Source of the DNA: Pseudomonas fluorescens
GTDB lineage: Bacteria > Pseudomonadota > Gammaproteobacteria > Pseudomonadales > Pseudomonadaceae
Length of the DNA stretch: 64,000 nt
Assembly (NCBI RefSeq): GCF_000967965.1
Contig: NZ_LACC01000012.1
Span: 662 to 64,661, forward strand
Direction of reading: 5' to 3'
Shown: positions 2 through 14,242 of the stretch, piece after piece
Layout of the letters: each line of letters opens with the position of its first letter
Numbering within the stretch: the stretch's first letter is position 1
The notes under the pieces: generated by a model
What the model saw: the letters and a program-made list of their open reading frames with translations, nothing else
Told to the model about the DNA's origin: nothing
Database searches by the model: none
Made by a program: the position numbers and the translations under genes

Positions 2-706
2 AACAACATCCGTCAGATGGCGCAGGAAGAAGGCGTGGAAAACGCATTCGACTTCCCAGGCTTCGTACCGGCGTACATCCGTCCGCTGTTCTGCCGTGGC
101 ATCGGCCCGTTCCGCTGGGCTGCACTGTCGGGCAACGCTGAAGACATCTACAAGACCGACGCCAAGGTCAAGGAGCTGATCCCGGACGACGCCCACCTGC
201 ACAACTGGCTGGACATGGCCCGCGAACGTATCAGCTTCCAGGGTCTGCCGGCCCGTATCTGCTGGGTTGGCCTGGGCCTGCGCGCCAAGCTCGGTCTGGC
301 GTTCAACGAAATGGTGCGCAGCGGCGAATTGTCCGCGCCCATCGTGATCGGCCGCGACCACCTGGACTCCGGTTCGGTGGCCAGCCCTAACCGCGAAACC
401 GAATCGATGCAGGACGGTTCCGACGCCGTCTCCGACTGGCCACTGCTCAACGCTCTGCTCAACACAGCGAGCGGCGCGACCTGGGTTTCCCTGCACCACG
501 GCGGCGGCGTTGGCATGGGCTTCTCCCAGCACTCGGGCATGGTGATTGTCTGCGACGGTACTGACGAAGCGGCCGAGCGTATCGCTCGTGTGCTGCACAA
601 CGACCCGGCCACTGGCGTTATGCGTCACGCCGATGCCGGTTATCAGATCGCCATCGACTGCGCCAAGGAACAAGGGCTGAACCTGCCGATGATTACCGGC
701 AAGTAA
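2..706 (+). CDS. hutU: Urocanate hydratase (urocanase), C-terminal part; 5' end outside the window
   Basis: Catalyses the second step of histidine breakdown, urocanate to 4-imidazolone-5-propionate, using tightly bound NAD+ in the cytoplasm. The reading frame is already open at base 2, so about 234 C-terminal residues of a protein normally near 557 are visible. The conserved Gly-rich [15 protein letters not shown] stretch and the [11 protein letters not shown] segment are typical of urocanase. It is followed after a 77-base gap by the NCS1 permease on the same strand and heads the hut genes seen here. The HutC operator expected upstream of the operon is not in the window. Identification is secure; only the start is missing. 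Confidence 0.96.
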
Positions 707-783: not shown

Positions 784-2253
784 ATGGCTGTCAGCAGCGA
801 ACGTGCAAGCAACAAACCGTTGATCGAGAAGCGCTCGATCGACTACATCCCGGAAGCGGAAAGACACGGTCGTCTGTTAAGCCAGTTCACCCTGTGGATG
901 GGTGCCAACCTGCAAATCACTGCGATTGTCACCGGTGCTTTGGCAGTGGTGCTTGGCGGCGATGTGTTCTGGTCGTTGATCGGTCTGTTGATCGGCCAAC
1001 TGCTCGGCGGTGGCGTGATGGCGCTGCATGCCGCGCAAGGCCCCAAGCTTGGCCTTCCGCAGATGATTTCCAGCCGGGTACAGTTCGGCGTGTACGGCGC
1101 GGCCATCCCGATCGTGCTGGTCTGCTTGATGTACCTGGGCTTCACCGCAACGGGAACCGTGTTATCCGGCCAGGCGCTGGGCCAGTTGTTTGGCGTCAGC
1201 GACACCGTCGGTATCCTCCTTTTCGCCAGTGTCATCGTGCTGGTCACGGTGCTCGGTTATCGGGTGATCCATTGGATCGGCCGTGTTGCCAGTGTCATTG
1301 GCGTGATTGCCTTTGTTTATCTGTTCAGCCGTCTGATGAGCCAGGTTGACGTTGGCGCACTGTTGCAAATCCGCCACTTCAGCTGGAGCAGTTTCTTGCT
1401 CGCGGTGTCGCTCGCGGCGTCCTGGCAGATCGCCTTCGGCCCTTATGTGGCTGACTATTCTCGCTACCTGCCGAGCAAGATTTCCTCGGTGAAAACTTTT
1501 TTTGCCGCAGGCGCAGGTTCGGTCATTGGTGCACAGGTGGCGATGGTCCTCGGCGTGTTCGCTGCCGCTTCGGCCAACGGGCAATACGCCGGCCACGAAG
1601 TGGCCTACATCGTTGGTCTGGGTGGTACCGGTGCCACCGCTGCGCTGCTGTACTTCAGCATCGCGTTCGGCAAGGTCACCATCTCCACGCTGAACTCCTA
1701 CGGCAGCTTCATGTGCATCGCGACCATCATCAGCGGTTTCCGTGGTGACCTGAAGGTAACGCGCTTGCAGCGTCTGGTGTTCGTGCTGGTCATCGTCGGG
1801 GCTGCGACCCTGATGGCGTTGCTCGGTCAACACTCGTTCCTCGGTGCGTTCAAGTCCTTCATCCTGTTCCTGCTGGCGTTCTTTACGCCGTGGAGCGCGA
1901 TCAACCTGGTGGACTACTACTGCATCACTCGCGAGCGCTATGACGTACCGGCGCTGGCCGATCCGAATGGTCGCTACGGTCGTTGGAACCTTCTCGGTAT
2001 CAGCGTTTATGTGTTTGGTGTGCTGGTGCAACTGCCGTTCATCTCCACCAAGTTCTACACCGGTCCGCTGGTGGCGGCCCTGGGTGATGTGGATATTTCC
2101 TGGATCATCGGTCTGGTGCTTCCCGCAGCCCTGTATTACCTGTGTGCGAAAAAATGGCACGGCACAGTGCCTGATCGTTTGATCCTGCCGGTCGAGCAGG
2201 ACGCGGTCACCGAACAAAAGCTGGATGTCGGTCGCGCTGCGGCGCAGGCCTGA
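784..2253 (+). CDS. NCS1-family permease of the hut operon (probable urocanate transporter)
   Basis: A 489-residue integral membrane protein of the nucleobase:cation symporter 1 family (CodB/CytX-like) with about twelve hydrophobic segments. The N-terminus is a soluble stretch ending near residue 40, before TM1. General annotation would be cytosine/purine permease. Its place directly after hutU argues that the substrate is an imidazole compound, and from memory the homologue in P. fluorescens SBW25 is the urocanate transporter called HutTu. GAGGTTGA lies just before the ATG and supports this start. The family is seen in the sequence; the urocanate substrate is inferred from position and recalled work. 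Confidence 0.85.
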   Translation: MAVSSERASNKPLIEKRSIDYIPEAERHGRLLSQFTLWMGANLQITAIVTGALAVVLGGDVFWSLIGLLIGQLLGGGVMALHAAQGPKLGLPQMISSRVQFGVYGAAIPIVLVCLMYLGFTATGTVLSGQALGQLFGVSDTVGILLFASVIVLVTVLGYRVIHWIGRVASVIGVIAFVYLFSRLMSQVDVGALLQIRHFSWSSFLLAVSLAASWQIAFGPYVADYSRYLPSKISSVKTFFAAGAGSVIGAQVAMVLGVFAAASANGQYAGHEVAYIVGLGGTGATAALLYFSIAFGKVTISTLNSYGSFMCIATIISGFRGDLKVTRLQRLVFVLVIVGAATLMALLGQHSFLGAFKSFILFLLAFFTPWSAINLVDYYCITRERYDVPALADPNGRYGRWNLLGISVYVFGVLVQLPFISTKFYTGPLVAALGDVDISWIIGLVLPAALYYLCAKKWHGTVPDRLILPVEQDAVTEQKLDVGRAAAQA

Positions 2254-2322: not shown

Positions 2323-3291
2323 ATGAAATCGAACAAGACCCTGCTGACCACATTGCTTTCCATGGGCCTGCTGGCCAGCGCTGGCGCCACTCAGGCGGCG
2401 AGTTGGTGCGAGTCGGGCAAACCGGTGAAATTCGCCGGTTTGAACTGGGAAAGCGCCATGCTGCTGACCGACGTGATGCAAGTCGTGTTGGAGAAAGGCT
2501 ACGACTGCAAGACTGACAGCCTGCCGGGCAACTCCATCACCATGGAAAACGCCCTGAGCAGCAACGATATTCAAGTGTTTGCCGAAGAATGGGTCGGCCG
2601 TAGCGAAGTCTGGAACAAGGCCGAGAAGGCCGGCAAGGTCGTCGGTGTCGGCGCGCCGGTTGTTGGTGCGATCGAAGGCTGGTACGTGCCGCGCTACGTG
2701 ATCGAAGGCGACGCCAAGCGCAAGCTGGAAGCCAAGGCTCCGGACCTGAAAAACATTGCTGACCTGGGCAAATACTCGGCGATCTTCAAGGACGCCGAAG
2801 AGCCGTCCAAGGGCCGTTTCTACAACTGCCCGGCCGGCTGGACCTGTGAGCTGGACAACAGCGAAATGCTGAAGAGCTACGGCCTGGAAAGCACCTACAC
2901 CAACTTCCGCCCGGGCACCGGCCCGGCGCTGGATGCCGCCGTGCTGTCGAGCTACAAGCGTGGCGAGCCGATCCTGTTCTACTACTGGTCGCCAACGCCG
3001 CTGATGGGCCAGATCGACGCGGTGAAACTCGAAGAGAAACCAGGCGTGAACAAGACCGTGGATATCAAGGTCGGCCTGTCCAAGACTTTCCACGACGAAG
3101 CGCCTGAATTGGTGGCCGTGCTGGAAAAGGTCAACGTGCCAATCGACCTGCTGAACCAGAACCTGGGGCGCATGACCAAAGAGCGGATCGAATCACCAAA
3201 ACTGGCCAAGATCTTCCTGAAGGAACATCCTGAAGTCTGGCACGCATGGGTGAGCGAAGACGCAGCCAAGAAAATCGACGCGGCCTTGTAG
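2323..3291 (+). CDS. hutX: Periplasmic substrate-binding protein of the hut ABC transporter
   Basis: A 322-residue OpuAC-type (glycine betaine/proline class) binding protein. The first ~24 residues form a classical signal peptide, a KSNK positive start followed by a hydrophobic core and an ATQAA cleavage region. The ATG at 2323 is preferred over upstream in-frame codons because TTAGGAG lies 12 bases before it and it begins the signal peptide. It is followed by permease and ATPase genes, giving a complete importer. In Sinorhizobium meliloti the like-named HutXWV takes up histidine, so histidine or a betaine-like compound is the likely ligand. Sequence alone does not settle the ligand. Confidence 0.88.
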   Translation: MKSNKTLLTTLLSMGLLASAGATQAASWCESGKPVKFAGLNWESAMLLTDVMQVVLEKGYDCKTDSLPGNSITMENALSSNDIQVFAEEWVGRSEVWNKAEKAGKVVGVGAPVVGAIEGWYVPRYVIEGDAKRKLEAKAPDLKNIADLGKYSAIFKDAEEPSKGRFYNCPAGWTCELDNSEMLKSYGLESTYTNFRPGTGPALDAAVLSSYKRGEPILFYYWSPTPLMGQIDAVKLEEKPGVNKTVDIKVGLSKTFHDEAPELVAVLEKVNVPIDLLNQNLGRMTKERIESPKLAKIFLKEHPEVWHAWVSEDAAKKIDAAL

Positions 3292-3361: not shown

Positions 3362-4213
3362 ATGTTTCCCGAAAGCTTTACCTTTTCCATCGCCGACTGG
3401 GTCAACGGTTGGGTCGATTCGCTGGTCACCAACTACGGCGACGTGTTCCGGCACATCTCCGACACCCTGTTGTGGGCCATCGTCAATCTCGAAGGCCTGC
3501 TGCGCGCCGCACCCTGGTGGCTGATGCTGGCAATCGTGGCCGGTGTGGCCTGGCACGCGACCCGCAAGGTCGTGACCACTGCCGTCATCGTTGGTTTGCT
3601 GTTCCTGGTGGGTGCGGTTGGCCTCTGGGACAAACTGATGCAGACCCTGGCGCTGATGATGGTGGCGACGATCATCTCGGTGTTGATCGGCATTCCGCTG
3701 GGCATTCTCTCGGCGCGCAGCAACCGCCTGCGTTCGATACTGATGCCATTGTTGGACATCATGCAGACCATGCCGAGCTTCGTGTACCTGATCCCGGTGC
3801 TGATGCTGTTTGGCCTGGGCAAGGTCCCGGCGATTTTCGCCACGGTGATCTACGCCGCGCCGCCGCTGATCCGTCTGACCGATCTGGGCATTCGCCAGGT
3901 CGACGGCGAAGTGATGGAAGCGATCAACGCCTTCGGTGCCAACCGCTGGCAGCAACTGTTCGGTGTGCAACTGCCACTGGCCCTGCCGAGCATCATGGCC
4001 GGGATCAACCAGACCACCATGATGGCCCTGTCGATGGTAGTGATTGCCTCGATGATCGGTGCCCGTGGCTTGGGTGAAGACGTGCTGGTGGGGATTCAGA
4101 CCCTCAACGTCGGACGCGGCCTTGAAGCCGGTCTGGCGATCGTGATTCTGGCTGTGGTGATCGACCGCATTACACAGGCGTACGGTCGCGCACGGCATGA
4201 GGTGAGCAAATGA
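3362..4213 (+). CDS. hutW: ABC transporter inner-membrane permease (proline/betaine class)
   Basis: A 283-residue permease of the OpuAB/ProW type with several hydrophobic helices. The EAA-loop signature that docks to the ATPase is visible near residues 180-215 ([16 protein letters not shown], then a Pro-rich LPLALP turn). A longer soluble N-terminal part precedes the helices, as is usual in ProW-type proteins. The stop overlaps the next start in ATGA, indicating translational coupling to hutV. It works with HutX and HutV in the inner membrane. Confidence 0.9.
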
Positions 4214-5055: not shown

Positions 5056-5184
5056 GTGGCGAGGGGGCTTGCCCCCGTTCGAGTGCGCAGCGCTCGCACA
5101 ATCAGTTAACCGGATAAATCTGACACACCAGAAAGCCAGAACAGGGCTGCTTCGCAGCCCAACGGGGGCAAGCCCCCTCGCCAC
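5056..5184. repeat. REPIN-like inverted REP doublet inside the hut operon
   Basis: Two REP palindromes in inverse orientation, GTGGCGAGGGGGCTTGCCCCC on the left and its complement ending at 5184. Between them are conserved small hairpins (GAGTGCGCAGCGCTCGC and GGGCTGCTTCGCAGCCC). The same arrangement occurs at 13159-13289 and, more diverged, at 38754-38889. It lies between hutV and hutH1 without interrupting either gene, and ends 40 bases before the hutH1 start. Confidence 0.85.
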
Positions 5185-5223: not shown

Positions 5224-6747
5224 ATGTCCCAGGCTGAAAAAATCGTTATCACCGAGGCGCAGGTCAGTTGGCAGGATGTTGTCGCCGTTGCTCGTCATGG
5301 CGCACAGCTTGAGCTGTCGGCGCCGATCTGGGCGCGCATCGAAAACGCGCAGGCCATCGTCCAGCGCATCGTCACCAGCGGCGAACGTGCCTACGGCATC
5401 AACACCGGCCTGGGCGCGCTGTGCAATGTCTCGCTGCAGGATGAGCAACTCAGCCAGTTGTCGCGCAATACCTTGCTCAGCCACGCCTGTGGCGTTGGCG
5501 CGCCACTGACCAACGAGCAGACCCGCTCGATCATGTGTGCCGCCGTCGTCAACTACAGCCATGGTAATTCCGGCCTGCACCGTCAGGTTGTCGAAGCACT
5601 GCTGGCGCTGCTCAACCGTGGCATCACCCCGCAAGTACCGTCCCAGGGTTCCGTGGGCTACCTGACCCACATGGCGCACATCGGCATTGCGCTGCTGGGT
5701 GTCGGCAATGTCAGCTATCGCGGCCAGGTCGTTTCCGCGCAGCAAGCGCTGGCCGAAGAAGGCCTGCAACCGGTCAAGCTTGGTGCCAAGGACGGTTTGT
5801 GCCTGGTCAACGGTACGCCGTGCATGACCGGCCTGAGCTGCCTGGCGATTGCCGATGCGACGCGCCTGCTGGAATGGGCTGACGTGATTGGTGCCATGAG
5901 CTTTGAAGCCCAGCGCGGGCAGATCGACGCGTTCGATGCCGAGATCATCGCGCTCAAGCCGCACCCGGGCATGCAGCAGGTCGGGATTAATCTGCGGGCC
6001 TTGCTCGACGGCAGTGAAGTGATTGCCAAGAGCAAAGGCATCCGTACCCAGGATGCCCTGAGCATTCGCTCGATCCCGCAGGTGCACGGCGCTGCTCGCG
6101 ACCAATTGGTACACGCGACCAAACAGATCGAAACCGAACTCAACGGCACCACCGATAACCCGATGGTGCTGGGCACCGCGGACAATTATCGCGTGGTGTC
6201 CCAGGCCAACCCCCACGGCCAGTCCGTGGCAATGGCGGCGGACCTGCTGGCGATTGCCATGGCGGAAATCGGCTCCATTGCCGAGCGTCGCCTGGACCGT
6301 TTGATCAACCCGCACGTTAGCGGTCTGCCGGCTTTCCTGGTGGCCAACCCGGGGGTGAACTCCGGGATGATGATCGTGCAGTACGTCGCCGCTTCGCTGT
6401 GCGCGGAGAACCGTCAACTGGCACAACCGGCGGTGCTGGATAACTACGTGACGTCGGGCCTGCAGGAAGATCACCTGAGCCTGGGCACCAACGCCGCGCT
6501 GAAGCTGCATCGCGCGCTGGAAAACTGCACGCAGATCCTCGCCATCGAGTATTTGCTGGCGGCCCAGGCGTTTGAATTTTTGAAAGAACAACGCTTCGGC
6601 GCAGGCACCGATGCTGCCTGGCGTCTGCTGCGCGAGCACGTTGCCCCCTACGACCAGGATCGCTGGTTGGCACCGGACATCGCCGCCGCTGCCGCGGTAT
6701 TGAAAGACCCGATTTTGCTGCACAACGCTTTTCCAGACCTGAACTGA
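5224..6747 (+). CDS. hutH1: Histidine ammonia-lyase-like paralogue lacking the MIO-forming Ala-Ser-Gly
   Basis: A 507-residue member of the aromatic amino acid lyase fold. The active enzymes build the electrophile MIO from an Ala-Ser-Gly in GSVGASGDL. Here GSVG (residues 142-145) runs straight into YLTHMAH, so exactly those three residues are absent compared with the neighbouring HutH. The catalytic Tyr of DPYSLR is Leu279, and the Phe of GGNFHAEP is Pro329. Other pocket residues remain: Tyr57 in YGINTG, His87, Asn196, Gln276, Arg282 and Glu414. GAGG lies 6 bases before the ATG at 5224, which I prefer over the upstream GTG at 5188. Standard deaminase activity is unlikely; it may be regulatory, form mixed tetramers, or catalyse something else. 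Confidence 0.88.
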   Translation: MSQAEKIVITEAQVSWQDVVAVARHGAQLELSAPIWARIENAQAIVQRIVTSGERAYGINTGLGALCNVSLQDEQLSQLSRNTLLSHACGVGAPLTNEQTRSIMCAAVVNYSHGNSGLHRQVVEALLALLNRGITPQVPSQGSVGYLTHMAHIGIALLGVGNVSYRGQVVSAQQALAEEGLQPVKLGAKDGLCLVNGTPCMTGLSCLAIADATRLLEWADVIGAMSFEAQRGQIDAFDAEIIALKPHPGMQQVGINLRALLDGSEVIAKSKGIRTQDALSIRSIPQVHGAARDQLVHATKQIETELNGTTDNPMVLGTADNYRVVSQANPHGQSVAMAADLLAIAMAEIGSIAERRLDRLINPHVSGLPAFLVANPGVNSGMMIVQYVAASLCAENRQLAQPAVLDNYVTSGLQEDHLSLGTNAALKLHRALENCTQILAIEYLLAAQAFEFLKEQRFGAGTDAAWRLLREHVAPYDQDRWLAPDIAAAAAVLKDPILLHNAFPDLN

Positions 6748-6860: not shown

Positions 6861-8393
6861 ATGACTGCGCTAAACCTGATTCCCGGCCAACTGACCCTCT
6901 CCCAACTGCGTGACGTCTATCAGCAGCCGGTGAAACTGACCCTCGACCACAGCGCCTCGGCCCAGATCGAAGCCAGCGTGGCCTGCGTGGAGCAGATCCT
7001 CGCCGAGAACCGCACCGCTTATGGCATCAACACCGGTTTCGGCCTGCTGGCCTCGACCCGCATCGCCAGCGAAGACCTGGAAAACCTGCAGCGCTCGCTG
7101 GTGCTGTCCCACGCCGCCGGTGTTGGCCAGCCGATCAGCGATGAGCTGGTGCGTCTGGTCATGGTGCTCAAGGTCAACAGCCTGAGCCGTGGTTTCTCGG
7201 GTATCCGTCGTGTGGTGATCGACGCGCTGATCGCCCTGATCAACGCCGAGGTTTACCCGCACATTCCGTTGAAAGGATCGGTCGGTGCTTCTGGTGACCT
7301 GGCGCCTCTGGCCCACATGTCGCTGGTACTGCTGGGCGAAGGCAAGGCTCGCTACAAAGGCGAGTGGATGGAAGCCACCGAAGCGCTGAAAGTCGCAGGT
7401 CTTGCCCCGCTGACCCTGGCCGCGAAAGAAGGCCTGGCGCTGCTCAACGGCACTCAGGTGTCCACCGCTTTTGCCCTGCGTGGCCTGTTCGAAGGTGAAG
7501 ACCTGTTCGCCGGTGCCTTGGCACTGGGCGGCCTGACCGTTGAAGCGGTATTGGGCTCGCGTTCGCCGTTCGACGCCCGCATCCACGCTGCCCGTGGCCA
7601 GAAAGGCCAGATCGACGCCGCCGCCGCTTATCGCGACCTGCTGGGCGAGCGCAGTGAAGTCTCCGACTCCCATGAAAACTGCGAGAAGGTACAAGACCCG
7701 TACTCCCTGCGCTGCCAGCCACAAGTCATGGGCGCCTGCCTGACCCAGTTCCGTCAGGCGGCCGAAGTGCTGGCGATCGAAGCCAACGCCGTTTCCGACA
7801 ACCCGTTGGTGTTCGCCGCTGAAGGTGACGTGATCTCCGGTGGCAACTTCCACGCCGAACCGGTGGCCATGGCCGCTGACAACATGGCATTGGCCATCGC
7901 TGAAATCGGTTCCCTGAGCGAGCGCCGTATCTCGCTGATGATGGACAAGCACATGTCGCAACTGCCGCCGTTCCTGGTGGCCAACGGTGGCGTGAACTCC
8001 GGCTTCATGATTGCCCAGGTGACTGCGGCGGCACTGGCCAGCGAGAACAAGGCGTTGTCCCATCCGCATTCGGTGGACAGCCTGCCGACTTCCGCCAACC
8101 AGGAAGACCACGTGTCCATGGCTCCGGCGGCTGGCAAGCGTCTGTGGGAAATGGCTGAAAACACTCGCGGGATTCTCGCGGTGGAATGGCTGGCGGCCGT
8201 TCAGGGCCTGGACCTGCGCAACGGCCTGAAAACCTCGCCGAAACTGGAAAAGGCTCGGGCCATCCTGCGTAACGACGTGCCGTTCTACGAGAAAGACCGC
8301 TTCTTCGCGCCGGACATCAATGCGGCGTCTGAATTGTTGGCTTCGCGCTGCCTGAACGAGCTGGTGACAACGAAGTTGCTGCCTAGCCTGTAA
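6861..8393 (+). CDS. hutH: Histidine ammonia-lyase (histidase)
   Basis: First enzyme of histidine degradation, L-histidine to trans-urocanate plus ammonia, a cytoplasmic homotetramer. At 510 residues it matches the classic Pseudomonas enzyme. The MIO prosthetic group is made from Ala143-Ser144-Gly145 in [13 protein letters not shown]. Expected active-site residues are all present: Tyr54, His84, Asn196, Gln278, Tyr281, Arg284, Phe330 and Glu415. AAAGGAG precedes the ATG. It follows the MIO-less paralogue and is clearly the functional histidase of the pair (HutH2 of two-copy pseudomonads). Confidence 0.97.
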
Positions 8394-8502: not shown

Positions 8503-9909
8503 ATGGCACAGCCAGAAAAAGGTTTGAAACGCGGGCTATCTGCCCGACATATTCGCTTCATGGCGCTGGGGTCGGCGATCGGCACCGGGCTGTTTTACGG
8601 TTCTGCCTCGGCCATTCAAATGGCCGGGCCTGCGGTACTGCTCGCTTACCTGATCGGTGGCGCGGCAGTGTTCATGGTCATGCGCGCCCTCGGTGAGATG
8701 GCGGTGCACAACCCGGTGGCTGGCTCTTTCGGTCAGTACGCCAGCACCTACCTGGGGCCGATGGCGGGCTTCATCCTCGGTTGGACCTACGCATTCGAAA
8801 TGGTCATCGTCGGCATGGCCGACGTCACTGCATTCGGTATCTACATGGGCTTCTGGTTCCCGGAGGTTTCCCGCTGGATCTGGGTGCTGGGTGTTGTTTC
8901 CATCGTCGGCGGCCTGAACCTGTGCAACGTCAAAGTCTTCGGTGAAATGGAGTTCTGGCTGTCGCTGCTCAAGGTTGCGGCCATCGTCGCGATGATCCTG
9001 GGTGGTTTCGGCATCATGCTCTTCGGCATCAGCTCGGCCCCCGGCCAAGCGACCGACATCAGCAACCTCTGGACCCAGGGCGGCTTCATGCCCAATGGCA
9101 TGGGCGGTCTGATCGCTTCGTTCGCGGTTGTGATGTTTGCGTTTGGCGGTATTGAAATCATCGGCGTAACGGCAGGTGAGGCCAAAGACCCGCAACACGT
9201 GCTGCCCCGGGCGATCAATGCCGTACCGTTGCGTATCCTGCTGTTCTACGTACTGACGATGCTGGTGCTGATGTCGATTTTTCCATGGCAGCAGATCGGC
9301 AGCCAGGGCAGCCCGTTCGTGCAGATTTTCGACAAGCTGGGGATCAGCTCGGCGGCCACTATCCTTAATATCGTGGTGATCACGGCGGCGATTTCGGCGA
9401 TCAACAGTGACATCTTCGGCGCTGGCCGCATGATGTTCGGTCTGGCCCAGCAAGGTCATGCACCCAAGGGCTTCGCCCGCCTGTCGCGCAATGGCGTGCC
9501 ATGGATGACGGTGGTGGTAATGAGTGCCGCGCTGTTGCTGGGTGTGTTGCTGAACTACCTGATCCCGGAAAACGTGTTCCTGCTGATCGCTTCCATCGCG
9601 ACCTTTGCCACGGTGTGGGTCTGGCTGATGATTCTGGTGACCCAAGTGGCCATGCGCCGCTCCATGAGCGCCGAGCAGGTGGCACAACTGAAATTCCCGG
9701 TACCGCTCTGGCCCTATGCGCCGGCGGCGGCGATTGCCTTCATGCTGTTCATTTTCGGCGTGCTGGGCTATTTCCCGGACACCCAGGCGGCGCTGATCGT
9801 CGGCGTGGTCTGGATCGTATTGCTGGTGCTGGCTTACCTGACGTGGGTGAAACCGGCGGCGGGCCAGGCAGCCCTGGTAACGCAGGATCCTACTTTTTCT
9901 CATCGATAA
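8503..9909 (+). CDS. hutT: Amino acid permease of the APC family (histidine transporter)
   Basis: A 468-residue permease with about twelve hydrophobic segments and the amino acid permease signature near the N-terminus ([16 protein letters not shown], around residues 18-33, TM1). It resembles ProY/HutT. Its location between hutH and hutI indicates histidine uptake for catabolism, and from memory this is HutTh of P. fluorescens. Together with the NCS1 permease and HutXWV, this cluster encodes three distinct uptake systems. The family is certain; the histidine substrate follows from context. Confidence 0.9.
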
Positions 9910-9926
9910 CCTAATGGAGGCCACGG

Positions 9927-11132
9927 ATGAAAACTCTCTGGCAACACTGTCACGTCGCAACCATGGCACAAGGCGTCTACTCGATCCTCGAGGACGCGGC
10001 CATCGTGACGTCAGGAGCGCACATTGAGTGGATCGGCCCGCGCGGTGAGTTGCCGGCGGGCGAGTACCCGGCCGTCAATGATTTGAACGGGGCCTGGGTC
10101 ACACCGGGCCTGATCGACTGTCACACTCACACGGTGTTCGGCGGTAACCGCAGCGGTGAATTCGAACAGCGCCTGCAAGGCGTCAGCTACGCGGAAATCG
10201 CCGCCAGCGGTGGCGGCATCGCCAGCACCGTGCGCGCGACCCGCGCGGCCAGCGAAGATGAACTGTTCGTCAGTGCCGCCAAGCGCCTGAAAAGCCTGAT
10301 GCGTGATGGCGTCACCAGCATCGAAATCAAGTCCGGCTACGGCCTGGACCTGGCCAACGAGCGCAAGATGCTGCGTGTGGCCCGTCGCCTCGGTGCCGAA
10401 CTGCCGGTCAGCGTGCGCAGCACCTGCCTGGCGGCTCATGCCCTGCCGCCGGAGTACAAGGACCGCGCTGACGACTATATCGATCACATCTGCGCCGACA
10501 TGCTCCCGGCCTTGGCCGCCGAAGGTCTGGTGGACGCGGTGGATGCATTCTGCGAATACCTGGCGTTCTCGCCTGCGCAGGTTGAGCGTGTATTCATCAC
10601 CGCTCAGAAGCTGGGTTTGCCAGTGAAGTTGCACGCTGAGCAATTGTCGTCGCTGCACGGCTCAAGCCTGGCGGCGCGTTATCACGCGTTGTCCGCCGAT
10701 CACCTGGAGTTCATGACCGAGGACGACGCCATCGCCATGGCCGAGTCCGGCACGGTTGCGGTGCTGTTGCCCGGCGCCTTTTACTTCCTGCGCGAAACCC
10801 AATTGCCACCGATGGAAGCCCTGCGCAAGCACGGCGTGAAAATCGCCATCGCCAGCGACCTCAATCCGGGCACCTCGCCGGCACTGTCGTTGCGCCTGAT
10901 GCTGAACATGGCTTGCACCTGCTTCCGCATGACCCCGGAAGAAGCCCTGGCCGGCGCGACGATTCACGCCGCCACCGCATTGGGTATGGCCGACACCCAT
11001 GGCTCGCTGGAAACCGGCAAGGTCGCGGATTTCGTCGCCTGGCAAATCGATCGTCCGGCCGACCTGTGTTACTGGCTGGGCGGCGACCTGGAAAAACGCG
11101 TCGTGCGCCACGGCGTCGAATCAAGTCTGTAG
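9927..11132 (+). CDS. hutI: Imidazolonepropionase
   Basis: Hydrolyses 4-imidazolone-5-propionate to N-formimino-L-glutamate, the third step of the pathway. The 401-residue protein is a metal-dependent amidohydrolase. The HxH metal ligands are His66 and His68 in [16 protein letters not shown] follows near 135-140, and later metal/catalytic segments read KLHAEQ and [17 protein letters not shown] precedes the ATG. It is followed after ten bases by hutG. Confidence 0.97.
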
Positions 11133-11142
11133 GAGATCTGTT

Positions 11143-11946
11143 GTGGATAAGGTTCTGAACTTCAAACAAGGCCGCGTACCGCTGCTGATCAGCATGCCCC
11201 ACGCCGGCGTGCGCCTGACGCCTGCGGTCGAAGCCGGGTTGATCCCTGACGCGAAAAGCCTGCCGGACACCGACTGGCACATCCCGCAGCTGTACGACTT
11301 CGCTGCCGAACTGGGCGCCAGCACCCTGGCCGCCGAGTACTCGCGGTTCGTCATCGACCTGAACCGGCCGTCCGACGACAAGCCGTTGTACGTCGGCGCG
11401 ACCACCGGTCTGTATCCGGCCACGTTGTTCGACGGCATACCGTTGTTCCGCGAAGGCTTGGAGCCTTCTGCCGATGAGCGTGCGACTTATCTGGAGCAGA
11501 TCTGGACGCCGTACCACAGCACCTTGCAAAACGAACTGGCGCGACTGAAGGCCGAGTTCGGCTATGCGTTGCTGTTCGATGCCCACTCGATCCGTTCGAT
11601 CATCCCGCACCTGTTCGACGGCAAACTGCCGGACTTCAACCTCGGCACCTTCAACGGCGCCAGTTGCGATCCACTGCTTGCGACCCGACTGGAAGCGATC
11701 TGCGCGCTTCACGACAACTACACCCATGTACTCAACGGTCGCTTCAAGGGCGGGCACATCACCCGCCATTATGGCAATCCGGCCGAGAACATCCACGCGG
11801 TGCAACTGGAACTGGGGCAGTGCACCTACATGGAGGAGTTCGAGCCGTTCCGTTATCGCCCGGATCTGGCAGAACCGACGCGGGTGGTGCTCAAGGAGTT
11901 GCTGCAAGGGTTGCTGGCCTGGGGGCAGCAGCACTACAAGGGCTGA
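11143..11946 (+). CDS. hutG: N-formylglutamate deformylase
   Basis: Last step of the pseudomonad five-step hut pathway, N-formyl-L-glutamate to glutamate plus formate. The protein is 267 residues, the length I recall for the P. putida enzyme, and belongs to the N-formylglutamate amidohydrolase family (SMPHAGVRL near the N-terminus, FDAHSIRS in the middle, GHITRHYG towards the C-terminus). The start is GTG at 11143, with AGGAG seven bases upstream. Its presence implies that HutF, outside the window, supplies formylglutamate, rather than the direct formamide route. Confidence 0.95.
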   Translation: MDKVLNFKQGRVPLLISMPHAGVRLTPAVEAGLIPDAKSLPDTDWHIPQLYDFAAELGASTLAAEYSRFVIDLNRPSDDKPLYVGATTGLYPATLFDGIPLFREGLEPSADERATYLEQIWTPYHSTLQNELARLKAEFGYALLFDAHSIRSIIPHLFDGKLPDFNLGTFNGASCDPLLATRLEAICALHDNYTHVLNGRFKGGHITRHYGNPAENIHAVQLELGQCTYMEEFEPFRYRPDLAEPTRVVLKELLQGLLAWGQQHYKG

Positions 11947-11953
11947 AGATCAA

Positions 11954-12044
11954 AAGATCGTCCGAACGCGGCCCGAGCCTTCGGCAGCTCCTACCGGTGT
12001 TCGCAATACTAAGTAGGAGCTGCCGAAGGCTGCGATCTTTTTTT
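11954..12044. repeat. Long inverted repeat ending in a T-run after hutG; possible operon terminator
   Basis: The arms GCCTTCGGCAGCTCCTAC (11977-11994) and GTAGGAGCTGCCGAAGGC (12013-12030) are perfect complements, extended by AAAGATCG at 11953-11960 and CGATCTTT at 12033-12040. A run of Ts follows to 12044. The same element occurs at 41512-41578. It lies 7 bases after the last hut gene, so it may have been recruited as the hut terminator. Confidence 0.7.
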
Positions 12045-12162
12045 GTCGCCACCGTGCAAAACACGGTCGCCACAGGTCGCTTTCACCGCTCGTCTGCTGC
12101 GTAATGTTCTCGCCACGGTGCACAAAGACACCGCCCCGACAATAATCCGCTGCCGCACGAGA

Positions 12163-13128
12163 ATGCTCTCTATGACAAGCCCCAAAGGTCTGTTCACCCG
12201 CTGTCTCTCAATCTTCTGTGGCGCCGCTCTATTTAGCGCCGGCGCCATGGCCGCGGACGACTCCTCCTGCAAAACCGTGCGCATGGGCGTGGTGAACTGG
12301 ACCGACGTGATCGCCACCAGCGGCATGGCCGATGTGTTGCTCAACGGTCTGGGCTACGAAAGTAAGCAAACCAGCGCCGTGCAGCAAATCATCTTCGCCG
12401 GCATCCGCGACAAACGCCTGGACATCTTCCTCGGCTACTGGAAACCGGCGATGGATAAAAACATCGCACCTTTCGTGGCTGCCAATCAGGTCAAGGTCAT
12501 GGACAAGCCGAGCCTGGCCGATGCCCAAGCCACCCTCGCGGTCCCTGACTATGTTGCAGCGGCCGGCCTGAAAACCTTCTCTGACATCGCCAAATTCAAG
12601 GATCAGCTCGGCGGCAAGATCTACGGCATCGAGCCGGGCAGTGGCGCCAACACCACGATCAAGACCATGATCGAGACCAATCACTTTGGCCTCAAGGATT
12701 TCAAACTGATCGAGTCCGGTGAAGCCGGCATGCTTGCGGCCGTGCAGCGGGCAGTGAATCGCAAGGAGTTCGTGGTGTTCGTCGGCTGGACCCCGCACCC
12801 GATGAACATCAACATGAAGATCGACTATCTGACCGGCAGTGAGGACGTGTACGGCCCGAATGAAGGTGCCGCAACCGTCTCCAGCGTGACTGCCCCGGAT
12901 TACGCCGAGCGCTGCCCGAACGTCAATCGGCTGTTGGAAAACCTGACGTTCACCGCCGCCCAGGAAAGCCAGTTGATGGTGCCGATCATGGAGCGCCAAA
13001 CGGCTCAGGATGTCGCGAAAAAATGGCTGCGTGATCATCCCGAAGACTTGCAGCGCTGGCTGGCGGGTGTCAGCAGTTTCGATGGCAAGGATGGTGTGGC
13101 GACGGTTCAGGCCAGCCTGAAGAATTGA
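12163..13128 (+). CDS. Orphan ABC transporter binding protein, choline/quaternary amine type
   Basis: A ~321-residue periplasmic binding protein of the OpuAC family, closest by eye to choline-binding ChoX/BetX. An N-terminal signal peptide ends near AGAMAADD. Aromatic-containing stretches such as MGVVNWTD, FLGYWKPAMD and FVGWTPHPMN are the type that cage quaternary ammonium groups. No permease or ATPase gene is adjacent. In P. aeruginosa the orphan proteins BetX and CaiX share the CbcWV core, and this one may do the same. The alternative ATG is at 12172. The family is firm and choline is a likely ligand; carnitine or another betaine is possible. Confidence 0.8.
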   Translation: MLSMTSPKGLFTRCLSIFCGAALFSAGAMAADDSSCKTVRMGVVNWTDVIATSGMADVLLNGLGYESKQTSAVQQIIFAGIRDKRLDIFLGYWKPAMDKNIAPFVAANQVKVMDKPSLADAQATLAVPDYVAAAGLKTFSDIAKFKDQLGGKIYGIEPGSGANTTIKTMIETNHFGLKDFKLIESGEAGMLAAVQRAVNRKEFVVFVGWTPHPMNINMKIDYLTGSEDVYGPNEGAATVSSVTAPDYAERCPNVNRLLENLTFTAAQESQLMVPIMERQTAQDVAKKWLRDHPEDLQRWLAGVSSFDGKDGVATVQASLKN

Positions 13129-13158
13129 CCCCAAGGTCTTTGTGAACAAAAGGCTTTT

Positions 13159-13289
13159 GTGGCGAGGGAGCTTGCTCCCGTCCGAGTGCGCAGCACTCGC
13201 AAGTTTAGCGCCACGGTGAGTCAGTTAAACAGCGAGTCGTGCAATATGGGGCTGCTTCGCAGCCCAACGGGAGCAAGCTCCCTCGCCAC
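13159..13289. repeat. REPIN-like inverted REP doublet
   Basis: Outer arms GTGGCGAGGGAGCTTGCTCC and the complement ending at 13289, with the same internal hairpins as the copy at 5056-5184 (GAGTGCGCAGCACTCGC and GGGCTGCTTCGCAGCCC). Paired G/A-for-C/T changes in the two arms keep the stems intact, which suggests that the secondary structure is maintained. Confidence 0.85.
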
Positions 13290-13336
13290 AGGGATCATTT
13301 CAATCCAAACCCTCTGAATCAACGGGCACCAGGCTC

Positions 13337-14242
13337 ATGGCTCCTTACCCGCTTTCCAAACAGATGACGGCATTCGTCGACAAAACCCTGAGTTTCAACA
13401 GCGCCGACAGCAGAATCACCGGATTGCGCCAGGCCTACAGCGAGATGTGCCGGGCGTTTACCCCTGCACGCCCCGCCGGGTTGCATGTGGTCGATTTCGA
13501 GTTGGACGGTGTTGCGGTTCGTTCCTATCAGCCACCGGCCAGCGGTGCGTCGTGCATCGTTTATCTGCATGGCGGCGGCTGGGTGGTGGGGGACCTCGAT
13601 TCCCACGATTTCATCTGCGCCGAATGGGCATCGACTCTCGGTGTACGGGTGGTCGCCGTCGATTACCGCCGGGCACCGGAGCATCCGTTTCCCGCCGCGT
13701 TCAATGATTGCCTGAAGGTCTGGCGAGCACTGCGCACCGGGCCGAATAAGCTCGACCCGGAGCGTACGCTGGTGGCTGGCGACAGTGCCGGTGGCAACCT
13801 CGCGGCGGCGTTGTGCCTGGCGCTGCGCGATGCCGGCGAGCCGGTGCCGTGCGCGCAGGTGCTGATTTATCCGGGGTTGGGCGGCGATCACCGCCTGCCG
13901 TCGCGCAGTGAGTGCATCGACGCGCCATTACTCAGCAGCAGTGACGTCGATTGCTATCACGCGCTTTACCTGCAAGGCACCCACCATCCGAACGCCTACG
14001 CCATGCCATTGCTCGCCACGGATTTCAGCGGACTGCCACCGGCATTGATCGCCGTGGCGCAATTCGACCCGTTGCGTGATGACGGCGTGCTGTATGCCGA
14101 GCGACTGAATGCCGCGGGCGTGGTTGCCACTCTGTATGTCGGCGAAGGTTTGGTCCATGGCTGTTTACGGGCTCGCGGGCAGGTGGCCGAGGTCGATGCG
14201 CTGTACGAAACCTTGTCTGGTTATCTTGCGGAAAAACTCTGA
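13337..14242 (+). CDS. Alpha/beta-hydrolase esterase of the HSL (acetyl esterase) family
   Basis: A 301-residue cytoplasmic hydrolase. The oxyanion-hole motif HGGGW is at residues 78-82. The nucleophile is Ser150 in GDSAGGN, and the catalytic Asp244 (FDPLRD) and His274 (LVHG) lie in the expected order. RRAPEHPFPAA around 111-121 is another hormone-sensitive-lipase family mark. The natural substrate cannot be read from sequence; short-chain esters are typical. It has no obvious operon partner, as a REPIN separates it from the binding-protein gene and ~100 bases precede pip. Confidence 0.85.
   Translation: MAPYPLSKQMTAFVDKTLSFNSADSRITGLRQAYSEMCRAFTPARPAGLHVVDFELDGVAVRSYQPPASGASCIVYLHGGGWVVGDLDSHDFICAEWASTLGVRVVAVDYRRAPEHPFPAAFNDCLKVWRALRTGPNKLDPERTLVAGDSAGGNLAAALCLALRDAGEPVPCAQVLIYPGLGGDHRLPSRSECIDAPLLSSSDVDCYHALYLQGTHHPNAYAMPLLATDFSGLPPALIAVAQFDPLRDDGVLYAERLNAAGVVATLYVGEGLVHGCLRARGQVAEVDALYETLSGYLAEKL

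Follow-up and report, generated by a model that had tools for sequence, protein, structure and literature searches.

The window, the 64,000-nucleotide stretch of Pseudomonas fluorescens DNA analysed here, carries between hutV and the canonical hutH a gene for a full-length HutH homologue from which Ala-Ser-Gly, the source of the MIO cofactor, is cleanly absent in alignment with the neighbouring HutH. This observation is real. The loss is old, fixed and selected, since all of the best 80 orthologues are MIO-less, dN/dS is low and the active-site residues are invariant in 15 relatives. By analogy with ergothionase, we judge it fairly probable that the protein is a cofactor-free lyase whose most likely reaction would be the cleavage of hercynine (N,N,N-trimethylhistidine, histidine betaine) into trimethylamine and urocanate.

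The MIO-less gene and its active site

The gene, the residues that set it apart and the neighbour used for comparison are as follows.
5224..6747, + strand: MIO-less HutH-like lyase, 507 aa; by position, SBW25 hutH1; proposed hercynine trimethylamine-lyase (PF00221, 553.7 bits)
5647..5679, + strand: GSVGYLTHMAH loop, residues 142-152, the ASG-absent site with new Tyr146 and His149
6058..6060, + strand: Leu279, replacing the Tyr of HutH 281; also Leu in all four ergothionase-clade sequences
6211..6213, + strand: Pro330, replacing the Phe of HutH 330; Pro in eight and Ala in five of 13 clade members
6861..8393, + strand: canonical HutH with ASG intact, the comparison neighbour (TIGR01225, 727.9 bits)

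The MIO-less frame is open from the ATG at 5224 to the stop at 6747; a longer start at GTG 5188 is possible, and the consensus of 25 Pseudomonas orthologues starts with MSQAEK. Aligned with the neighbouring HutH (GSVG-Y---LTHMAHI), the protein has exactly three residues fewer and regains register at once, which bears out the claim of the initial annotation that ASG is cleanly missing beside a normal hutH. The same alignment confirmed that Tyr281 of the neighbour, which we take to correspond to Tyr280 of P. putida HAL, is Leu279 here. The reported replacement of Phe330 by proline also holds, although this proline is residue 330 and not 329, and among the residues described as kept, Tyr57, His87, Asn196, Gln276 and Arg282 were correct, whereas the glutamate is Glu415 and not Glu414. 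The interval then quoted, 5641-6090, spans the MIO loop and Leu279 but leaves out Pro330. In the MIO-less clade, the Tyr281 position is Leu in 13/13 members compared, and the same 13 sequences share the new Tyr146 and His149 as well as the changes of HutH Val387 to Tyr and Leu359 to Arg. Tyr57, His87, Tyr146, His149, Asn196, Gln276, Leu279, Arg282 and Glu415 are invariant across the window protein and 15 relatives of 47-80% identity.

The PF00221 score lies far above the gathering score of 27.3 and places the protein in the aromatic amino acid lyase superfamily, of which the same genome encodes a third member, outside the window and with ASG. Identity to HutH is approximately 39-42%. The hutH equivalog model TIGR01225 gave 542.8 bits, only 3.65 bits over its cut-off of 539.15, and the broader model NF006871 takes the protein in by a larger margin; the narrow pass of the one and the pass of the other may explain the hutH label of these genes in annotated plasmid records. 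An AlphaFold2 model built from 25 close Pseudomonas sequences had a mean pLDDT of 41.6, the alignment being probably too shallow.

The score with the equivalog model would suit an ammonia-lyase or aminomutase that works without MIO on unmodified histidine, as would the part of HutXWV in histidine uptake described in passages of the review PMC8871633. We consider this very improbable, because ammonia would be a poor leaving group without MIO, a normal HutH is encoded next door and the SBW25 copy is not needed for growth on histidine according to the same passages.

The orthologue set consisted of the best 80 matches from genome contigs, all from Pseudomonas because the search retains the best 80. 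GSVGYLTHMAH and TQDALS were present in 80/80, and neither ASG at that site nor an internal stop was found in any of them. The dN/dS values (NG86) against the window gene had a median of 0.087 (range 0.043-0.138, 80 orthologues); for the neighbouring HutH the median was 0.050 (78 orthologues). The initial annotation had argued that the gene is not a decaying pseudogene, and had named ASG in close relatives, as a sign of recent loss, and a dN/dS near 1 as observations that would speak against its account. The orthologues uphold its argument: the loss is not recent and dN/dS is far from 1. The missing catalytic residues might still suggest a decaying pseudogene retained through its position in the operon, a chance that we regard as negligible, this reading being refuted by dN/dS values of 0.04-0.14 over the best 80 orthologues, by the lack of stops and by conservation across several proteobacterial groups. 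Chance or recent decay as the cause of the missing ASG is ruled out by the 80/80 conservation, the absence of stops and the low dN/dS.

In 99 genomes of the genus, including that of the window, an orthologue was counted by eye in 74 at an identity of at least 60% and in 72 at at least 70%. All 74 also have a HutH match, which is only a copy of approximately 62% identity in five of them, is truncated in G034 and is partial in G080.

Phylogeny and comparison with ergothionase

A maximum-likelihood tree built from 38 sequences united the 18 MIO-less proteins of the window gene's kind in one clade (support 100/99), with members from Pseudomonas and, by named plasmid records, from Erwinia, Burkholderia, Rhizobium and Aureimonas. 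Sister to it, at 95/93, was another group without MIO (L062, L063). Canonical HutH proteins formed a separate clade (99/98) with the window protein outside it, and the Treponema denticola ergothionase (6s7j) grouped with three relatives in another MIO-less clade (100/99). The branch of 6s7j is long (3.22), so that its exact deeper placement is uncertain. The simplest account of this tree has at least two losses of MIO, which we regard as probable. In the active-site table the sister group L062/L063 keeps both Tyr281 and Phe330, and those two changes are therefore not required by MIO loss.

Passages of PMC13405746 describe ergothionase as an MIO-less enzyme that splits trimethylamine off ergothioneine to give thiourocanate, whereas the product of the MIO-less lyase would be urocanate. 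The ergothionase alignment, obtained via the L068 query, shows that both the T. denticola enzyme (PDB 6s7j/6s7q) and the window protein are HAL-family homologues without the ASG triad and with Leu at the Tyr281 position, and that the Tyr, Gln, Arg and Glu positions are kept in both. At the position that is Leu, Ile or Met in HutH, both clades have a basic residue, Lys in the ergothionase clade and Arg359 in the window clade. The two nevertheless belong to separate, fully supported clades, the loop reads SSIGEGD in ergothionase and GSVGY in the window protein, and Asn196 of the latter is Ser in the former. In addition, a Lys (383 by chain index, in QKT or QKP), which we take to be catalytic, is conserved in 4/4 sequences of the ergothionase clade, whereas 13/13 of the window clade have Tyr387. 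The separate clade and the missing Lys rule out plain ergothionase as the identity of the MIO-less protein. It is thus not an ergothionase by these two tested features, but may, by analogy, work like one.

As a parallel to the window gene, a gene of the ergothionase clade (L068/L234, 6085-13527) was found together with hutC (279 bits, over the cut-off), an importer of OpuAC type and a gene of the ornithine cyclodeaminase type, which makes this locus a likely unit for ergothioneine or a related betaine.

Importers and hut genes around the MIO-less gene

Upstream of the MIO-less gene, the window encodes the following.
17..706, + strand: C-terminal part of urocanase HutU, the window beginning inside the gene (ORF; HutU homologues at the same place in most of the best 80 loci)
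784..2253, + strand: NCS1 permease, by position the urocanate transporter HutTu in passages of PMC8871633 (PF02133, 178 bits)
2323..3291, + strand: HutX, OpuAC-family (glycine-betaine-type) binding protein (PF04069, 199.7 bits)
3362..4213, + strand: HutW, ABC permease of the HutXWV importer (ORF; named by gene order as in passages of PMC8871633)
4210..5040, + strand: HutV, ABC ATPase of the HutXWV importer (ORF; named in the same way)

HutX aligns with glycine betaine and choline binding proteins and keeps the Trp positions; its Trp 41, 89, 119 and 221 (counting the Lys at window 2326 as residue 1) are invariant in 80/80 best orthologues, and the relatives of known structure at E <= 0.001 are six proteins, each deposited as a binding protein for glycine betaine, proline or choline. 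In SBW25, HutXWV takes part in histidine uptake according to passages of PMC8871633, and this speaks against an importer for betaines alone. In the SBW25 locus described there, the genes from hutU to hutH follow one another as in the window, so that the match is one of position; its hutH1 is called a histidase, and those passages make no mention of a missing MIO or of the substrate.

Between hutV and the MIO-less gene lies a perfect inverted pair of 24 bp (window 5056-5079 and 5161-5184). The motif has 176 copies genome-wide (89 forward and 87 reverse, with at most two mismatches), in many listed cases as facing pairs approximately 85-110 bp apart, and similar pairs occur at window 13159/13266 and 38756/38864. 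We take it to be a REP-type repeat, and the pair may tune expression between importer and lyase. A second binding protein, of quaternary-amine type by reading of its sequence, is encoded downstream of hutG (window 12043-13128) and is present in part of the best 80 loci.

Gene maps of the loci were built by tblastn. The order hutX-hutW-hutV-MIO-less gene was found in 80/80 best loci, all from Pseudomonas. By eye over the 99 genomes of the genus, HutX at an identity of at least 75% occurs in 68, namely in 67/72 genomes that have the MIO-less gene (at least 70%) versus 1/27 others (G043). Five Pseudomonas genomes (L080-L084) have a unit composed of a LysR gene, hutX, hutW, hutV and the MIO-less gene, around which no other hut gene was found within stretches of 19.5 kb; importer and lyase can thus travel as one module. 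In a further Pseudomonas locus (L079, genome G023, 9056-13774), hutW, hutV and the MIO-less gene are present without a hutX between the NCS1 gene and hutW, where another binding protein would have to serve.

Over 47 mapped loci, an importer component lies directly upstream of the MIO-less gene on the same strand in 38, being of HutV type in nine, an opine-type ABC ATPase in 26 and a BCCT (betaine/carnitine/choline carrier family) protein in three (L065, L066 and L090, with 385.7, 388 and 390.9 bits). The other nine comprise two with the dehydrogenase of a Rieske operon directly upstream and seven with none of the importers tested. As a control, an importer lies directly upstream of only one of 25 canonical, ASG-bearing hutH genes, drawn from the loci at hand and including 14 with only about 1.4-1.5 kb of upstream sequence; two others have the MIO-less gene upstream. 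The 47 loci are not independent, as several genomes per genus are included, L079-L084 were picked because the gene lies away from hutH, and the set includes 15/15 same-kind matches of one search, 9/16 of a second and 10 selected ones (47-67% or 80% identity) from a third. The contrast with hutH is large despite these non-independent and partly chosen loci. MIO-dependent HutH belongs to the same family and the same operon and shares most substrate-binding positions, but the window clade differs from it in the lack of MIO, in the replacement of Tyr281 and Phe330 and in the importer component upstream in most of the loci inspected.

The opine-type importer, the commonest outside Pseudomonas (26/47), does not itself point to betaine: the one binding protein tested, from R. 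etli, is nearest to the octopine-binding protein and also related to the nopaline-binding protein. Octopine- and nopaline-binding proteins bind alpha-N-substituted amino acids. These 26 loci therefore lend some weight to an MIO-free lyase that would form urocanate from another alpha-N-substituted histidine, for example a mono- or dimethylated histidine, an opine (histopine, for instance) or a betaine modified on the ring, and the hut and hutC context would suit any urocanate precursor. We regard this as unlikely, since the BCCT and OpuAC importers favour quaternary amines and secondary or tertiary amines would be poor leaving groups without MIO; ergothioneine itself is made less likely by the Tyr that replaces the Lys of the ergothionase clade.

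The importers also bear on the suggestion that the protein is a non-catalytic partner or sensor, which would bind histidine or urocanate and either form mixed tetramers with HutH or report on substrate. The loss of MIO and Tyr281, the HutH match in 74/74 sampled genus genomes with the MIO-less gene and its position beside hutH in the window are in keeping with such a role. We hold it to be improbable, because the general active-site residues are conserved, importers accompany the gene in 38/47 loci versus 1/25 for hutH, separate four-gene units with their own LysR exist, two relatives lie in a Rieske operon (L064 and L228) and the MIO-less gene takes the hutH position in an Aureimonas operon (plasmid sequence only). 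Mixed tetramers, sensing and MIO-independent chemistry had all been offered in the initial annotation; the evidence favours the last, while the importer link is left unexplained by the first two. MIO-independent chemistry is favoured because the active-site residues are kept, an importer lies upstream in most loci, LysR-HutX-HutW-HutV units occur and ergothionase provides an enzyme precedent.

In L064 (4566-10606) and L228 (4006-10028), the MIO-less relative forms part of an operon-like run with a Rieske oxygenase, an enolase-type enzyme, an Ldh_2 dehydrogenase and a GbcB/DmmA-like reductase. The best model for the oxygenase was GbcA (glycine betaine monooxygenase), with 585.7 bits, under the cut-off of 670. 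The L064 protein is 49% identical to the window protein, and genes of its kind occur in 3/298 Pseudomonas genomes; in the third (L229), the neighbours of the Rieske run were not found in the tblastn map. In L231 (9880-18608), the operon-like run around a member of the sister group comprises genes for an opine-type importer, a Rieske oxygenase of VanA type with its reductase, a glyoxalase-fold protein and a glutathione-dependent formaldehyde dehydrogenase (710.9 bits versus a cut-off of 543.95), and may serve to break down a different methylated amino acid. The L064/L228 and L231 settings alike point to chemistry on methylated nitrogen or oxygen. On a plasmid of Rhizobium daejeonense (L078, 8009-14761), the MIO-less gene lies beside genes for a molybdenum hydroxylase, a cytochrome c and a desaturase-like protein, and no importer was found directly upstream.

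On the product side, the MIO-less gene lies among hutU, hutI, hutF, hutG or hutC in many mapped loci. It adjoins hutC in Burkholderia pyrrocinia (L075) and in L086, L210, L211 and L213, in which no other hut gene was found in the stretch. HutC binds DNA without urocanate and is released by it, according to passages of PMC8871633; the title of PMC12772324 states that HutC also senses PCA, so that a hutC neighbour alone is no proof of urocanate. In Aureimonas AU20, a complete hut operon has the MIO-less gene as its sole hutH-type gene, and the 311-kb plasmid that carries it contains no further match. Urocanate, or a close analogue, as product of the MIO-less lyase is the plain reading of the hut and hutC context. 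PA5093 is presumably a HutH-like gene. That locus tag is given to hutG in passages of PMC12772324.

The putative hercynine lyase

Catalysis, substrate, leaving group and the roles of single residues, as we infer them, would be as follows. HutXWV, or elsewhere a BCCT or another importer, would bring the betaine into the cell. The residues retained from histidase at the Tyr, His, Asn, Gln, Arg and Glu positions would hold the imidazole and the carboxylate and take the beta proton, and the trimethylammonium group would sit in the space freed by MIO and Tyr281. Trimethylamine would then leave without MIO, needing no electrophilic activation, and urocanate would enter the hutU-hutI-hutF-hutG pathway. 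In HAL, MIO is required to turn ammonia into a leaving group. That trimethylamine can leave without it is argued by analogy, because ergothionase releases it in this way (passages of PMC13405746).

A hercynine lyase would be expected to be dispensable on histidine, and passages of the review PMC8871633 call hutH1 of P. fluorescens SBW25 exactly that, which agrees with the statement in the initial annotation that growth on histidine depends on the other HutH alone. The genomic context, foremost the upstream importer component, is the main evidence for the hercynine reading. Points against it are the opine-type importer in 26/47 loci, the 7/47 loci without the importers tested and the 5/72 genomes without HutX at an identity of at least 75%. 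No recognisable description of a hercynine lyase was found in the open-licence PMC literature, as judged by titles, abstract starts and passages.

We give about even chances to a broader account, in which MIO-free lyases would have evolved independently a second time and, spread widely through Proteobacteria under the HutH label, would bring hercynine, via urocanate, into the hut pathway with betaine importers of their own. HutXWV would then be primarily a histidine-betaine importer. The MIO-less L062/L063 group, which in one genome adjoins the VanA-type Rieske oxygenase and the glutathione-dependent formaldehyde dehydrogenase, may have a different methylated amino acid as its substrate, and betaine lyases without MIO would then form a general class.

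The analysis proposes for SBW25 hutH1 and hutXWV a function that can be tested, and suggests that some proteins annotated as histidine ammonia-lyases are not. Hercynine is made by fungi and actinobacteria en route to ergothioneine. If the proposed reaction is true, soil and plant-associated bacteria would have a route to feed on hercynine, which would also be a source of trimethylamine. The same chemical reason would then lie behind at least two losses of MIO, and the rule that a betaine leaving group needs no MIO would become testable.
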